A stretch of DNA of 31,238 nucleotides. Origin: a virus. Within the stretch, counting starts at the first letter, position 1. Each line of letters opens with the position of its first letter. The translations under genes and the position numbers were made by a program. The notes beneath the pieces were generated by a model. It did not search any database and had not been told where the DNA came from. It saw only the letters and a program-made list of their open reading frames with translations. The stretch spans positions 1 through 31,238 of IMG/VR virus record IMGVR_UViG_3300028287_000018; one strand, 5' to 3'. Shown here one piece after another: positions 19,555 to 29,572 of the stretch.

Positions 19555-20484
19555 TTATGCAAGTAGTTCGAAATCTTCAACTGCACTTTCCCAGTTTTTA
19601 AGTTTAACTTCGTTCACCATTTTACTATGTTGAAAACAAGCATCAACAGAGTCCTTAAAAGCAAGCAAATCGTCTTCTACACCTTCTAAAACACTTTCAA
19701 TAGAAGCCTCAAATGCTTCTGCAATTGCCTCTGCTTCTGCTTCAAGAGATTCCAGAAAATCAGACACATCAATTGATTCAATATCAGCTTGAATAGCTGA
19801 TGCTAATGCTTCTGCATCTGTTGCTAAACCTTCTACTGTAGATACAACAGTAGCAGCCAATGCTTCTACATCAGATGCTATAGTCTCAACTACAGATTCG
19901 GCAGCATCAGCTATATCAGAAAGTATATCATCACTGGATAATGCATCAAATTGTTCTTTAACTGAGACTACTGCATCTTCCACATTCTTTGCCAAGTCTT
20001 CCATATAATCAGATATTGGCTGAAATATATTATCTAAGTCTAGTTCATCTATTTCATTGCCTATATCAGTAACAATATTTTCTAATGCTAACAGAGCATC
20101 ACAACCACCATTTAACGTTGCATTGAATCCCATCACACTGCTTTGAAAATCAGTCAAAGAGGCAATATCAAGCCCGAAAGTTTCCACCGAAAATGTATCT
20201 GGATTGATACCAGATTGAAACAGAATAGCAGATATATCTTCATTAGACGCCTTTGATAATGAATCAGATAGTGTAGATAGACCACTTGCTTCACTAAAAG
20301 GAAGACCTTCTATCGTAGTTAGCATATTTTCCTTTAGAATAGACATTTGATCTGAAGGAAATGCAAATGAAGCTGTAATAGATTTAAGTTCATCTTCAGA
20401 AGAAAAGTCGCCAATACCTAAATTATCAACAAGCTCATCTGTTTGAAAAAATTCCATATCTTGTGAAATTAAACCGTCTGACAT
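19555..20484 (-). CDS. Acidic coiled-coil structural protein, unknown family (309 aa)
   Basis: Starts MSDGLISQDMEFFQTDELVD, with AAGGGA at good distance before the ATG. The protein is strikingly acidic. Residues about 1-125 are mixed Ser/Phe-rich. About 125-290 form long, nearly proline-free helices in repeating Ala/Glu/Asp/Val patterns (such as IADAAESVVETIASDVEALA and FLESLEAEAEAIAEAFEASI) that look like a coiled coil. Two Cys (about 129 and 282) flank the helical stretch. I recognise no family. It lies three bases after the gp5 stop and 18 before the peptidase, so it is likely co-expressed with the spike and enzyme. It might be a hub-associated scaffold, chaperone or internal tail component; all of these are inference. 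Confidence 0.8.
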   Translation of the reverse strand: MSDGLISQDMEFFQTDELVDNLGIGDFSSEDELKSITASFAFPSDQMSILKENMLTTIEGLPFSEASGLSTLSDSLSKASNEDISAILFQSGINPDTFSVETFGLDIASLTDFQSSVMGFNATLNGGCDALLALENIVTDIGNEIDELDLDNIFQPISDYMEDLAKNVEDAVVSVKEQFDALSSDDILSDIADAAESVVETIASDVEALAATVVSTVEGLATDAEALASAIQADIESIDVSDFLESLEAEAEAIAEAFEASIESVLEGVEDDLLAFKDSVDACFQHSKMVNEVKLKNWESAVEDFELLA

Positions 20485-20487
20485 ATC

Positions 20488-21777
20488 TTATATCCCTTCC
20501 GCATCAGGGTGTGCATGTTCTGGGTCTGGTTCATCAGCAATTGATGAATATGACGTATCATCATAAGTAAAATCTATTGGAAAATCATTTTCAATGGGCT
20601 TACCAAGACCCGTTCTCAACGAATCTCTTTTACCAGATGGGCTAGCAAAATCTGTTAGCGTACCTTTCACATATATTGTATATCCTGGGTCAACTTTAAC
20701 TGCTCCACTGGTATTCAAATCAATCTTAGCACCTTCAATAGCGATGTTATTAGCAGACTTAATGTTATATTGACCCGTTGTGTTGAAATATGTGTTACCA
20801 CCATTTTCAATTCTCACATCTGTGTTAGCATATGCAGAAATGAATCCTGTGTTGGCATAGACATGAATGTTACCTATTTCTGATTGCGAAACGATGTGCT
20901 GTCTAGTAAATAGATTATAGCTATCCAGATACGCTTCTTGTCTGATAGACGAACTCTTCTGTGAGAAAATATCACCAGAGTTCATGTAAATACCACCACC
21001 AACATTCAATCTATAATCACCATGCACATTCGTTGTCATTGTACCATCGACTGTTAGGTTACAATCAGATTCGACTTTGATATTAGACTTACCTCTGATA
21101 GTAACTTCAGACGCACCCTTTATCAATACTTTGCCGTTTCTCTCAATGATTGTTACACCATCACCAACAATCTTATTTGTTTGTGTACCAGTTGGCCCAA
21201 CTTCAAGATATGTGCCTTTTCTATGTCGAATATTTATTCTTTCAGACGCTGGTGAGTCATCCATTTCAAACACATGACCAGATTCTGTTTCTTGTACTTT
21301 ATTATATGGATACTGAGCATTGTATGGCGGTCTAGGTTCAATACTATCTTTTGTAGCATGTTGTGTTGCTACATGAGTTTTATCAATCTCCTCACCTCTT
21401 GCAAGTCTATTCACATCTGGATTGTATGCATCATGAGGTTTAGGATATATATCACTCTTACCATTAAATCCTTGAGTAGAATTAGGAAATGTTGTAGGCA
21501 TACCAGGCATCACACCAAGAACCATTGGGTGTTGAGCATCGTCGCCATCTAGAAAGAATCCAAACACCCACGACCCTTCAATCGGTGGTTTATAGTTAAA
21601 GTCATACGAACCAATAACAGGTATTGCCCAAGGTAGAGTTTCTGTAGGCACATCTTCTTTGCTATCTGGATGAATGTCAAAGCAGCGAATACGAAGACGA
21701 CCCATCTTTCTTGGGTCTCTACGGTCTTCTACGACACCCATAAACCATAGTAGATTTCTAAATCCATTTTCAGCCAT
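20488..21777 (-). CDS. gp5: Baseplate hub spike protein gp5-like, lacking lysozyme domain
   Basis: 429 residues. Residues about 8-95 are the OB-fold (LLWFMGVVEDRRDPRKMGRL, then PWAIPVIGS, PPIEGSWVFGFFLDGD, HPMVLGVMPG) typical of gp5/VgrG spikes. Residues about 160-190 (VQETESGHVFEMDDSP, then INIRHRKGTYLEV) are the conserved entry to the needle. From about 190 the chain is short repeating beta strands (IKGASEVTIRGKSNIKVESD) expected to form the triple beta-helix. The T4 protein has a lysozyme domain between OB fold and helix; here there is no room for one and no lysozyme motif, so the enzyme activity probably resides in the separate M15 peptidase. The ATG overlaps the gp27-like stop by one base. 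The C-terminus ends in PEHAHPDAEGI. Confidence 0.93.
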   Translation of the reverse strand: MAENGFRNLLWFMGVVEDRRDPRKMGRLRIRCFDIHPDSKEDVPTETLPWAIPVIGSYDFNYKPPIEGSWVFGFFLDGDDAQHPMVLGVMPGMPTTFPNSTQGFNGKSDIYPKPHDAYNPDVNRLARGEEIDKTHVATQHATKDSIEPRPPYNAQYPYNKVQETESGHVFEMDDSPASERINIRHRKGTYLEVGPTGTQTNKIVGDGVTIIERNGKVLIKGASEVTIRGKSNIKVESDCNLTVDGTMTTNVHGDYRLNVGGGIYMNSGDIFSQKSSSIRQEAYLDSYNLFTRQHIVSQSEIGNIHVYANTGFISAYANTDVRIENGGNTYFNTTGQYNIKSANNIAIEGAKIDLNTSGAVKVDPGYTIYVKGTLTDFASPSGKRDSLRTGLGKPIENDFPIDFTYDDTSYSSIADEPDPEHAHPDAEGI

Positions 21778-23117
21778 TATCCTTCAAACTCCGATGTCAT
21801 ATCAGCTATTGTCGAAACTCCAGAGTTATCTCCGAGAGCAAGGTCTTTAGATAATACTAATATAGATTTATAAGATTGATCAATATCAATGGCGTGACTG
21901 ATAGATTGAATTAACCAATAACCAGAAAGACTTTTATTAAATTCTGGTTGTTTATCCATAACAGATTCAAAGTTAAATATATTTAATTTAATAATATCAC
22001 CAGCAAAAATATCATTTCGTCCATATATTTCTATTTCAACAGTAAATTCTTCATGATAATAGCGATTAGAAATTTTAGAAGAAATTATTTCTTTATATTT
22101 TTGATTAGGTCTTTCAGCATCTATAAAAACCATATGTGATTTTGGTATACCATCTGCTTCAAAGAAGTCTTGTCTAAATTTTTCCGTGTGTGGAAACCTA
22201 ATAGTCTTATCAGTATGAGTAAAATCTTGAACGTTGTCTCTGTAAGTGTATGGATTAAATATGAATTGCTTATTCAAAATATCAACTTCAACAACATCAC
22301 TTATCATTGCCCCAGAAGCTATTTCTCTCATCGTATCTAATCTATCATCCATTTTAAAAGATAATATATTGTGCATAGCATCATCTCTGGTAGCAATATC
22401 ATCTGCTAGTATAGCCTGATTAAATGTATATACGATTGCACTTTCTCTACCATCTTTTATCATTTGTTCATGCGTTTTCATTTTGAATTTTTCTCTTGTC
22501 TGATAGAAATAATAGTTAGAACTTTTATTGGTCGCAGAATACGACCTTCGAGTTAGAAAATCAATTGCTGCAATCGGACTAAGAGATGGAATAACAATCG
22601 TCTGTACGCCATCAGTATCTTCAATCTCAATTTCATTGTTTGAGTTTGGAAACCGTGTTGTATCGACCAGATATTCATCAAATATCAGTTCAATCATCTC
22701 CTTGATTGTTTTATCTTGATAACTCTTTTGAACATTTCTACTCATATCCAACAAATGATGAGTAGAAACAAACTTTAACGTGTAATACATATAGGTTTGT
22801 TGTTTATTAGGAACAGCGTGACTTACATTGTAAACGAAAAATTCTTGTGATATTTCATTTTCAAAAAAATCAATGTATCTAATGGTTAATAATTCTTCAC
22901 CAATAATAGGAAAATTATCAAGCAAACCTTGGGCTTCTAATAATTTAATCTCTCCCATCAAAGCCGGACTATTGATAGACTCCGAAAAGGTTAGCGTTTC
23001 AATAAATCCTGCTACGTTAATTGGTTGTTGAGTTGAACGAATCCCAGTTTTATCGTAGTGAGATAGAGATGCTTCTATGATATTGCCGAACCCAACGTCA
23101 AATCCATTTTTAGCCAT
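21777..23117 (-). CDS. gp27: Baseplate hub protein gp27-like
   Basis: 446 residues (T4 gp27 is 391). The N-terminal domain contains FIETLTFSESINSPALMGEI, followed by GEELLTIRYIDFF and YTLKFVSTHHLLDMSRN, the tail-tube-like double-barrel pattern of gp27/gpD hub proteins. The middle (SLSPIAAIDFLTRRSYSATN, then YYFYQTREKFKM) is the typical hub insertion domain. The C-terminal beta part (FTVEIEIYGRNDIFAGDIIK, then LSGYWLIQSISHAID) matches hub proteins of the gp27/phage-46 class. It forms the trimeric ring joining the spike to the tube. It overlaps gp53 by eight bases upstream and gp5 by one base downstream, so hub and spike are translated together. The family assignment is strong on architecture and context. 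Confidence 0.88.
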   Translation of the reverse strand: MAKNGFDVGFGNIIEASLSHYDKTGIRSTQQPINVAGFIETLTFSESINSPALMGEIKLLEAQGLLDNFPIIGEELLTIRYIDFFENEISQEFFVYNVSHAVPNKQQTYMYYTLKFVSTHHLLDMSRNVQKSYQDKTIKEMIELIFDEYLVDTTRFPNSNNEIEIEDTDGVQTIVIPSLSPIAAIDFLTRRSYSATNKSSNYYFYQTREKFKMKTHEQMIKDGRESAIVYTFNQAILADDIATRDDAMHNILSFKMDDRLDTMREIASGAMISDVVEVDILNKQFIFNPYTYRDNVQDFTHTDKTIRFPHTEKFRQDFFEADGIPKSHMVFIDAERPNQKYKEIISSKISNRYYHEEFTVEIEIYGRNDIFAGDIIKLNIFNFESVMDKQPEFNKSLSGYWLIQSISHAIDIDQSYKSILVLSKDLALGDNSGVSTIADMTSEFEG

Positions 23118-26531: not shown

Positions 26532-27242
26532 ATGGCATTACCTAAAATTGACACACCTATCTTTACACTAAAGCTGCCATCATCGAACGGGAAAAAGAAC
26601 ATTAAGTTTAGACCGTTCACCGTGAGAGAAGAGAAAATTCTTCTGATGGCAGCACAAGGAGAAGGTGATGAAGCAACATTAGATGCAATCAAGCAGGTCA
26701 TCAACAACTGCTTACACACAGAAATTGATATTGATGATTTACCAACATATGACATTGAATATATCTTTGTAAATTTGAGGGCTAGGTCTATAAATAATGT
26801 GATAGAATTAACACTAACAGATGATAAAGACGAACAAATATATAATGTTCCTGTCAACATTGATGATATCAAAGTAGTGTTTAACAAAGACCATAAGTAT
26901 GTTATCGAATTAAACAAAAATATTTCAATCACGTTAAGAGACCCAAACTATAACGTGGTGCAAAAACTTTCTTCTTATAAGCAAGATGATGATGCTATGA
27001 TGGAAATGGTTATCTCTACCATCGATAAGGTACTGGTTGGTGAAGATGATGTTCTGTTGATGAAAGACCACACGAGAAAAGAACAAGAAGATTTTATTAA
27101 TTCATTGTCTTCTCAAAACATGCGTGATATTGAAGAATTCTTGAATACGCTTCCCAAACTCTCGCATACTGTTGAATATGCAAGAGAAGATGGTACGAAG
27201 GTTGAAAAGGTTGTTGAAGGGATGCAAAGTTTTTTTACTTGA
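26532..27242 (+). CDS. gp26: Baseplate hub/tail assembly protein gp26 (T4_baseplate family)
   Basis: 236 residues (T4 gp26 is 208). The N-terminus (MALPKIDTPIFTLKLPSSNG, then IKFRPFTVREEKILLMAAQG) and DLPTYDIEYIFVNLRARS are the hallmark of the T4 gp26-like family. It is needed for hub assembly and, in other tailed phages, proteins in this position act as tail assembly chaperones that bind the tape measure. GGAG precedes the ATG by about 11 bases. The last codons are AGT TTT TTT ACT TGA, giving an in-frame T_TTT_TTT slippery heptamer; a -1 shift enters the following ORF. An exact TATAAATA lies inside it at 26789, probably by chance. Confidence 0.92.
   Translation: MALPKIDTPIFTLKLPSSNGKKNIKFRPFTVREEKILLMAAQGEGDEATLDAIKQVINNCLHTEIDIDDLPTYDIEYIFVNLRARSINNVIELTLTDDKDEQIYNVPVNIDDIKVVFNKDHKYVIELNKNISITLRDPNYNVVQKLSSYKQDDDAMMEMVISTIDKVLVGEDDVLLMKDHTRKEQEDFINSLSSQNMRDIEEFLNTLPKLSHTVEYAREDGTKVEKVVEGMQSFFT
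27230..27236 (+). promoter_or_regulatory. Candidate -1 ribosomal frameshift site (T_TTT_TTT)
   Basis: Seven consecutive T lie so that the gp26 reading frame splits them as T TTT TTT, the X_XXY_YYZ geometry of a -1 slippery site, six bases before the gp26 stop. After a -1 slip the ribosome reads TAC TTG and then continues into the ATG of the 57-aa ORF with no stop, giving a 294-residue fusion. A weak all-A/T 8-bp hairpin (arms 27252-27259 and 27267-27274) lies 15 bases downstream. TGATG at 27240-27244 also allows stop-restart. Confidence 0.55.
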
Positions 27243-27415
27243 TGATGATCCATAATAATATCTCTAATTATTATAAGGTCATCTTTTCCCTAGTACAACA
27301 TCATAACTATTCTATAACTGAACTTGAGAATTTAATACCGTTTGAACGTGACTTATATGTTGAAATGCTTATTGATCATATTGAAGAACAAAATGCAAAA
27401 CAACAACAAGGATAA
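27242..27415 (+). CDS. 57-aa ORF overlapping gp26 stop; tail chaperone extension or gp51-like small protein
   Basis: ATG 27242-27244 overlaps the gp26 TGA (TGATG), in the -1 frame. The product begins MMIHNNISNYYKVIFSLVQH and contains ELENLIPFERDLYVEMLIDH, ending in EEQNAKQQQG. The F-E-R-D-x-Y-x-x-M-L-I-D pattern resembles the short second chaperone frame (lambda gpT / T4-like equivalents) that lies between chaperone and tape measure genes. It may be made alone by translational coupling, or as the C-terminal extension of gp26 by -1 frameshifting at the T7 run six bases before the stop. T4 has gp51 as a hub-assembly factor; equivalence is a guess. AAGGA near its end serves as ribosome site for the next gene. 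Confidence 0.8.
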   Translation: MMIHNNISNYYKVIFSLVQHHNYSITELENLIPFERDLYVEMLIDHIEEQNAKQQQG

Positions 27416-27421
27416 CGTCAA

Positions 27422-27808
27422 GTGTCTGAAGAAGAAACGAACACCGTCACCATTGACGCAGCGGCTTTGCCTGGTGCTGATGCAAATGGTGACGGTCACG
27501 TCTCACAAGAAGAGATGGATATGTACCTTGAGTTTAAGCGTAAAGAGTTGGAAGACGCTGATGCTCGTAGAGATGCAATGAGGCAGATGACTTGGTTTGC
27601 TTTGTTTGGAATGCTTCTGTATCCGTTTAGCATCTTCTTCACTTCGTTATTTGGTGTAGACAAAGCAGCAGTGATTATTGGTAACATTGCACCAACATAC
27701 TTTGTAGCAATCTCTGCACTTGTTGCTGCTTACTTTGGTGCTAATGCATACAGTGATAAGAAGGGTAGTAAACCACCTAGTAAACCATCAACACCTGTTA
27801 AGAAATAA
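27422..27808 (+). CDS. EF-hand plus two-transmembrane-helix protein
   Basis: GTG start at 27422, supported by AAGGA about nine bases upstream and lying seven bases after the previous stop. 128 residues. Residues 20-31 are a canonical calcium-binding EF-hand loop, DANGDGHVSQEE, with D1, N3, D5, G6, V8, S9 and E12 in place. A charged helix follows (about 33-55), then TM1 about 57-78 (WFALFGMLLYPFSIFFTSLF) and TM2 about 84-108 (IGNIAPTYFVAISALVAAYF), then a Lys/Pro/Ser-rich tail. By layout the N-terminus and C-terminus probably share one side of the membrane, likely the cytoplasm. It sits between the tail chaperone and the tape measure. Possibilities are a holin-like or membrane-anchoring protein; function unknown to me. 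Similar proteins seem to occur in marine T4-like phages. Confidence 0.85.
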   Translation: MSEEETNTVTIDAAALPGADANGDGHVSQEEMDMYLEFKRKELEDADARRDAMRQMTWFALFGMLLYPFSIFFTSLFGVDKAAVIIGNIAPTYFVAISALVAAYFGANAYSDKKGSKPPSKPSTPVKK

Positions 27809-27883: not shown

Positions 27884-29572
27884 ATGGCTGAAGCAACATT
27901 AAATGACGTAACTAATGCGATTGAAGCAAGCAATAAAAACCGAAGCACCCAACAAAAGTTTTCTGAATTTAATGAATATAGACGAAATAAATCGAACGGA
28001 AAAATTTTAAATTCATTAGTTAATGAAGTAAAAGCATTAATGCTTCCGGCACAAACATTAGTTAAAGAATTCAAAATATTATCTTCTGCTCAAATTGATT
28101 TTATTAAATTAATGGGAGCAAAATTTGAACTGGATGAAGAGTTACGGAAGAGACAAGATAGATTAAAATTGTTGACCTCGCCCACATCCAAAGGATTTGA
28201 CTTGTCAAGTCTTCCAAAGAGTGCTTTTTCAAAGATATTTGGTAGCTTGAGTAAAGGCTTCTCTGGTATTATTGAGGTTCTTAAAAAAAACAAATTAGGT
28301 ATTTTGACCTTAGCCCTTGGTGGTCTTTTAACTGTTATGGCGCTTTTTCCAAAAAAGTTTAAAACATATGTACAAGAACCATTAGCGGATTTAATAGGTA
28401 TATTTTCAGGCGGAGGCAATGACCCAACGACAATGTTCGGAAAAGGCGTTAAGTCTTTAAGAGACTTTATGTCAACTATCGGTGATATTTTTGGTACGAA
28501 GGTAGAAGGAGCGGGATGGGCTATAGGTCTAGCGAGTACCATTGCTGTATTAAGTAAAGCCGGTATACCTACCTTTGGTGTAGGTAAGCTGGCTATTACA
28601 GGCCTTAAAGGAGTTTTGGCAGTGATAACGGCGTTCCCCCCCGTATTTGCGGGAATAGCTGCCGTAGCCGGCATTTATGCAGCCCTCGAATTGCTAAGAG
28701 ATATTGCAGTCAATGATGAACTGGAAATACTTGAAGAGCAAAGAGAAAAGTTGCGTGACGCTGTAGCGAGCGAAGATGCGAAAGCAATCGCAGGTGCTGC
28801 TGCACGGTTGCGAGAAACTATGAAAAGGCTGGAAGACACTGGCTTAACAAGGTCTCAAGCTATTAGAGATAAAATGGTAGAGACCCAAGAAGAATTATCC
28901 ACTATTGCGAATAAAAATCAAGCGGAGGCCCTTGCTAAACTTAATGAGGTAACTTCACTAGCAGCAAATAAAGCAGTAACAAAACAAATTGTTCAAGATT
29001 TAAAAATAGGCGCTTCTGCTGCGTTTGACACACTTATTCAGGATAAAGCCAATACGAATGCACAAGTTGCAGAAGTAGAAAGACAACTTGGCTTAATTGA
29101 TCAGAATACATCACTGTCAGATTCCGATAAAAAATTGTTGGTAGATTCAATACTTAGCGTAGCTCGGAAGAGGTTCGATAGTAAGTTTGACACGGCTATA
29201 GACAAGGAAGGCGGCATGATGGATGTGCGGTTCAAGGCCGCACGTGAAAAACGATTGAAGTACGACATGTTTGGCGAGATGGCTGGAGAATCCCCTGGCG
29301 ATATTGTCGATAAGACCATGAAAGAACTAAAAGAAAGGGGTACAAAAGTGAATGCTGTTGCGGCTCAAAAGGCTGAAAATCAAGCAGCACAACTTGCCGC
29401 AAATGCTAGAAGACGAGGCGGCGGGACGGATGCCAATATCATTGCCGCACCAACAACTAATGACAGTCGTGACCAAAGTAGTAAAATTTATAACTATACT
29501 TTCTATTCAACGGATAGTAAAAGAGGTGGACCTGGCACCAATCGTAGATACCAGGTTCCCGCTAGTTTTTAA
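27884..29572 (+). CDS. gp29: Tail length tape measure protein gp29-like
   Basis: 562 residues (T4 gp29 is 590). Almost wholly helical: charged N-terminal helices (about 1-110), a hydrophobic region at about 135-160 (LGILTLALGGLLTVMALF) and further hydrophobic stretches at about 215-275 (WAIGLASTIAVLS; PPVFAGIAAVAGIYAALELL). These are followed by charged coiled coil (LEILEEQREKLRDAVASEDA onward) and a short C-terminal YNYTFYSTDSKRG segment. This is the usual tape measure pattern: coiled coil fixing tail length, with membrane-active segments for DNA delivery. Position just downstream of gp26 and its -1 frame partner supports the call. Some stretches have higher G+C than the A+T-rich start of the gene. 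It ends in the shared terminator. Confidence 0.85.
   Translation: MAEATLNDVTNAIEASNKNRSTQQKFSEFNEYRRNKSNGKILNSLVNEVKALMLPAQTLVKEFKILSSAQIDFIKLMGAKFELDEELRKRQDRLKLLTSPTSKGFDLSSLPKSAFSKIFGSLSKGFSGIIEVLKKNKLGILTLALGGLLTVMALFPKKFKTYVQEPLADLIGIFSGGGNDPTTMFGKGVKSLRDFMSTIGDIFGTKVEGAGWAIGLASTIAVLSKAGIPTFGVGKLAITGLKGVLAVITAFPPVFAGIAAVAGIYAALELLRDIAVNDELEILEEQREKLRDAVASEDAKAIAGAAARLRETMKRLEDTGLTRSQAIRDKMVETQEELSTIANKNQAEALAKLNEVTSLAANKAVTKQIVQDLKIGASAAFDTLIQDKANTNAQVAEVERQLGLIDQNTSLSDSDKKLLVDSILSVARKRFDSKFDTAIDKEGGMMDVRFKAAREKRLKYDMFGEMAGESPGDIVDKTMKELKERGTKVNAVAAQKAENQAAQLAANARRRGGGTDANIIAAPTTNDSRDQSSKIYNYTFYSTDSKRGGPGTNRRYQVPASF

Follow-up and report, generated by a model that had tools for sequence, protein, structure and literature searches.

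In phage lambda, the slip site of the G/GT gene pair is G_GGA_AAG. The window, which is the whole stretch of 31,238 nucleotides analysed here, resembles this pair: a short ORF carries a −1 slippery site close to its 3′ end, where an open −1 frame overlaps it. In contrast, its slip site differs, one small gene precedes the presumed tape measure, and the N domain belongs to the T4 gp26 family. The dnaX cassette of E. coli has, like that of the window, an upstream Shine-Dalgarno (SD)-like element, a heptamer, and a downstream stem-loop. However, the dnaX heptamer is A_AAA_AAG, the shift product is the shorter protein, and the two loci are unrelated by descent.

In T4-like phages, frameshifting is reportedly conserved in several groups according to Vladimirov, Gautam and Davidson (Virology 2022, 566:9-15), and T4 is said to use genes 26 and 51. 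T4 gp26 ends in GAG TTC TTT GAG, in which the heptamer is broken to G_TTC_TTT, and T4 gp51 is a separate gene that forms a natural N+C fusion, with an N-like part and the C domain. Judged from these genes, T4 would reach the same end product by another route, a separate fused gene. In the window, the heptamer is present and the small ORF holds only the C part. According to papers that cite it, Vladimirov et al. 2022 already reported the tail assembly chaperone (TAC) genes of T4-like phages, frameshifting included, and to that extent the gene families and the N and N+C logic are the same as in the window. The window thus adds another case of a mechanism that had been proposed before for this phage group, here in an uncultivated T4-like phage whose cassette of SD-like element, T_TTT_TTT, and hairpin is complete. 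In two later papers, poly-T runs are given as the frameshift signals of T4-like TAC-N genes, with credit to Vladimirov et al. 2022 (PMC12846349), and some T4-like phages are said to use two separate genes instead, citing the same work (PMC10885494). In the TAC locus of Pseudomonas phage Adele (Vandenendeviridae/Andersonviridae), the −1 shift is conserved at a poly-T motif that, as in the window, lies where TAC-N ends (PMC12846349). The motif in these families is GTTTTT, and they are another phage group; their C part mostly carries a hypothetical annotation or none (PMC12846349). Campylobacter phage CP220 has the gp26-like and gp51-like parts in one continuous ORF without a heptamer (631-1365 of locus L092).

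The 3′ end of gp26 in the window reads AGT TTT TTT ACT TGA. The elements at this junction are as follows:

26532-27242, + strand: gp26, short-form tail assembly chaperone (TAC-N) of 236 aa, by PF12322, phrog_150, and an AlphaFold model.
27216-27221, + strand: Shine-Dalgarno-like GAAGGG, a possible 5′ stimulator, 8 nt upstream of the heptamer.
27230-27236, + strand: slippery heptamer T_TTT_TTT; the first six T's are invariant in 52 clusters, and the seventh base is C, T, G or A.
27236-27415, + strand: C-terminal domain in the −1 frame (TAC-C, gp51-like), by phrog_634, 137 relatives, and T4 gp51 residues 200-245.
27237-27243, + strand: spacer of 7 nt from heptamer to hairpin, which includes the gp26 stop TGA at 27240-27242.
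27244-27283, + strand: 15-bp stem-loop, a likely 3′ stimulator, pairing 27244-27250 with 27277-27283 and 27252-27259 with 27267-27274.

After a slip, the −1 frame is TAC TTG ATG ATG ATC and has no stop until the one that ends at 27415. Its translation reads Y-LMMIHNN...KQQQG. The predicted slip product is ...MQSFF-Y-LMMIHNNISNYY..., the peptide across the junction of the predicted fusion is ...MQSFFYLMMIHNN, and the whole fusion would comprise 294 residues (235+1+58). An ATG at 27242-27244 overlaps the gp26 stop and could open a separate ORF of 57 aa. The phase of the T run, the open −1 frame, the ATG that overlaps the stop, and the length of the fusion had all been given in an earlier note made from the letters alone, and each agrees with the present reading of the sequence.

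The heptamer alone is not diagnostic, because the window has one other zero-frame T_TTT_TTT among about 10,100 codons scanned; its conservation is diagnostic. The second copy lies on the − strand at codon 82 of the tail gene 21777-23117, far from the gene end.

Relatives of gp26 were fetched from IMG/VR by gp26 peptides, with five different gp26 proteins as starting points, and isolate-genome loci were fetched by protein similarity; the heptamer was never used to find relatives. The sample comprises 144 distinct gp26 junctions and 52 clusters that are <75% identical. These are divided into group A (35 clusters, the window included) and its sister group B (17 clusters), in which the gp26 stop is 16 nt from the start of the heptamer. 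T_TTT_TTN and the −1 relation are preserved in each of the 137 junctions where a gp51-like domain lies adjacent and out of frame. Among the 144, no second ORF was found in the +1 frame, and no relative was found with a broken heptamer next to an out-of-frame second ORF. The conservation of T run, frame relation, and open −1 frame, for which the earlier note had proposed an alignment of relatives, is thus borne out. The conserved junctions include those of Kyanoviridae, Schizotequatrovirus ValKK3, Aeromonas PX29, Cronobacter S13, Emdodecavirus phiM7, Pootjesviridae P10VF, and pf16. The C part is unannotated in the deposited genomes of S-MbCM6, S-CAM8, ACG-2014d, and Cronobacter S13.

In 136 of the 144 junctions, T_TTT_TTN is followed by the gp51-like domain in the −1 frame with no intervening stop, and the seventh base is C in 79, T in 53, G in 2, and A in 2. 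Locus L102 has an intact heptamer but an earlier stop in a gp26 that is 99% identical to that of HTVC008M, and a local indel is the likely cause of this stop. The other seven junctions are six of T4 type without an adjacent C part and the single in-frame ORF of CP220. Homopolymers are error-prone, and the likely indel of L102 would be an error of this kind upstream in gp26, so a sequencing or assembly error that splits a single gene has to be weighed. However, 137 distinct junctions share this split; they come from independent projects and include isolate genomes such as P-SSM2, HTVC008M, and ValKK3. An artefact is refuted by these independent genomes, and its probability is negligible.

The six leading T's have a pairwise variability of 0.00 across the 52 clusters, while the third positions of nearby upstream codons have about 0.57-0.76. 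Elsewhere in the gp26 genes, a zero-frame T_TTT_TTN is rare, with 6 cases among 8124 codon positions. Given the residues and the genes' own codon usage, and ignoring residual shared ancestry, T_TTT would be retained by chance in 35 clusters with a probability of about 10^-12. A chance heptamer is ruled out by this conservation across relatives.

The T run could also join the frames by transcriptional slippage, which alters the length of the mRNA, and a homopolymer run is indeed present. Six T's are short for polymerase slippage. This reading is disfavoured because most relatives (79 of 136 junctions) have only six T's followed by C. What is conserved is a codon-phased heptamer with a variable seventh base and not the length of the run, and a structure follows at ribosomal spacing. 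Transcriptional slippage is accordingly held to be very improbable.

Just 3′ of the heptamer, base variability follows the −1 codon periodicity across the 52 clusters, and the variability of the −1 second position is 0.04, 0.11, 0.04, and 0.00 at codons 2, 4, 6, and 9. The second frame is conserved as protein without reliance on a start codon of its own. Many members of group B have a −1 frame stop directly 5′ of the heptamer, and the −1 frame is therefore entered at the heptamer or after it. These data bear on termination-reinitiation at TGATG, which the earlier note had named as a competitor and which would yield a separate 57-aa gp51-like protein and no fusion. The overlap of ATG and stop is found in the window and its closest relatives, 14 of the 52 clusters (the window lineage among them) have an ATG ahead of the conserved block, and reinitiation could act alongside frameshifting. 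On the other hand, it cannot explain the family, because 32 of the 52 clusters have no ATG, GTG, or TTG available for the C part, and as the sole mechanism it is rejected for the family on this ground. There is no Shine-Dalgarno sequence 5-9 nt from the window's ATG, since the T run occupies that stretch. Reinitiation also leaves unexplained the six invariant T's at third positions, the −1 periodicity upstream of the ATG, and the fused form of T4 gp51. It is considered unlikely, although in the window lineage, where an in-frame ATG exists, it could add a little separate 57-aa product. A −1 frameshift at T_TTT_TTT, which would join gp26 to the gp51-like domain and give a short and a long chaperone, is on the sequence comparison very probably the mechanism.

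The layout of the window is dnaX-like, with a stem-loop 7 nt 3′ of the heptamer and GAAGGG 8 nt 5′ of it. The usual spacer of −1 sites is 5-9 nt, which the 7 nt of the window fit, and U_UUU_UUU shifts more weakly in E. coli than A_AAA_AAG (PMC5009743). The hairpin has a folding energy of −11.3 kcal/mol (z −3.0), and 2 of 200 shuffles were as good. It is 100% paired in 7 close relatives, and both changes in the stem preserve pairing; covariation in this lineage is uninformative, as the seven sequences are near-identical. Group B has a different, covarying stem of 9 bp with a 38-nt loop, which also starts 7 nt downstream of the heptamer. In this stem, 91% of cells are paired and 5 of 9 pairs are changed on both sides, compared with at most 35% paired when the stem is slid. 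In a comparison across clusters, the first 60 nt 3′ of the heptamer are more stably folded than the flanks (p 3e-4 and 6e-6). The mean z is −1.35 in group A, against −0.1 to −0.5 in the flanks, and −1.88 in group B, against about 0.1 to −0.5.

The SD-like element is a feature of group A, with a mean anti-SD energy of −6.2 kcal/mol in its 35 clusters versus −1.4 kcal/mol in control stretches (window, −4.4), and lies 7-9 nt 5′ of the heptamer in almost every case. This signal may partly reflect conserved Glu-Gly residues. No SD-like element is present upstream of the heptamer in the 17 clusters of group B. From the observed elements and RNA pairing, we infer a likely stimulatory role for the hairpins and a possible one for the SD-like element. 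One invariant T_TTT_TTN may have been served by two largely alternative stimulators, an upstream SD-like element in group A and a downstream stem in group B, which would have been exchanged without loss of frameshifting; the T4 lineage would have given up frameshifting for a separate fused gene. This proposal is given even chances. The hairpins and the two-stimulator pattern, of which no mention was found in the accessible literature, may add to published work.

The gp26 protein matches PF12322 (T4_baseplate) with E 4e-50 and phrog_150 (baseplate hub) with E 1e-59, and a profile of its relatives finds T4 gp26 with 58.9 bits. For the small ORF, the family match is phrog_634, "baseplate hub assembly catalyst", with E 7e-25. 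Its profile finds T4 gp51 residues 200-245 with 19.2 bits, and no more than the last ~46 residues of T4 gp51 have a counterpart in the small ORF. The AlphaFold model of gp26 has a pLDDT of 86. Among solved structures, residues 1-87 best match 2ob9, the tail assembly chaperone of HK97 (Z 7.8 over 85 residues, rmsd 4.1), with which 3fgx ties at Z 7.8, and the next rows have 5.1 and 4.0; a Z under 8 is not proof. Foldseek alone gave no match of the gp26 model in the PDB with E <0.001 (E 1.3), and a gp26 profile search of solved-structure sequences gave nothing significant. These homologies support a reading of the two ORFs as the N and C portions of one tail assembly chaperone. Because of the structure match, the synteny, and the T4 comparison, gp26 and the fusion likely play the role of lambda G and GT by analogy. 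The earlier note had taken gp26 and the small ORF for this phage's G and T, a proposal that gains support from phrog_634, the match to T4 gp51, and the resemblance to 2ob9.

The gene order is tail tube, gp26, gp51-like domain, a small gene with two transmembrane (TM) segments, and the presumed tape measure. The last two are:

27422-27808, + strand: small two-TM protein whose EF-hand-like loop reads DANGDGHVS, encoded between chaperone and presumed tape measure.
27884-29572, + strand: presumed tape measure protein of 562 aa, by position and synteny with HTVC008M.

The product of 27422-27808 is 55% identical to that of the HTVC008M gene directly 5′ of the annotated tape measure. Pelagiphage HTVC008M and related contigs keep this gene in the same place, after the chaperone pair and before the tape measure. 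The earlier placing of the tape measure after one small gene agrees with the HTVC008M synteny, but family searches with 27884-29572 gave no significant match. Identity of the presumed tape measure falls to about 25-33% even where contigs share 96-99% identity in the small gene upstream; this divergence, much faster than that of its neighbours, suggests replacement or rapid change. Elsewhere, a 309-aa ORF on the − strand (19555-20484), between endolysin-like and tail lysozyme genes, resembles tape measure families only weakly (E about 4e-4).

In the proposed mechanism, most ribosomes would terminate at the TGA at 27240-27242 and yield the 236-aa short chaperone (TAC-N). From the conservation and homologies observed, we infer that a minority slip back by one base, with tRNA-Phe in the P and A sites on T_TTT_TTT. 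The slipped ribosomes would read through the gp51-like domain to give the 294-aa long form (TAC-NC), and slippage is probably aided by the upstream GAAGGG and the hairpin 7 nt downstream. On the model of lambda G/GT, the short form would coat the tape measure protein and the long form would recruit tail tube subunits.

Databases of marine and freshwater T4-like phages label this gene pair as two separate baseplate proteins or miss the second gene, and the present reading would correct that annotation. It would also extend a rule that holds across phages, by which tail assembly requires unequal amounts of a short and a long chaperone. A family with and without the frameshift would offer a natural series of how a fixed protein ratio survives when the coding mechanism behind it is replaced.
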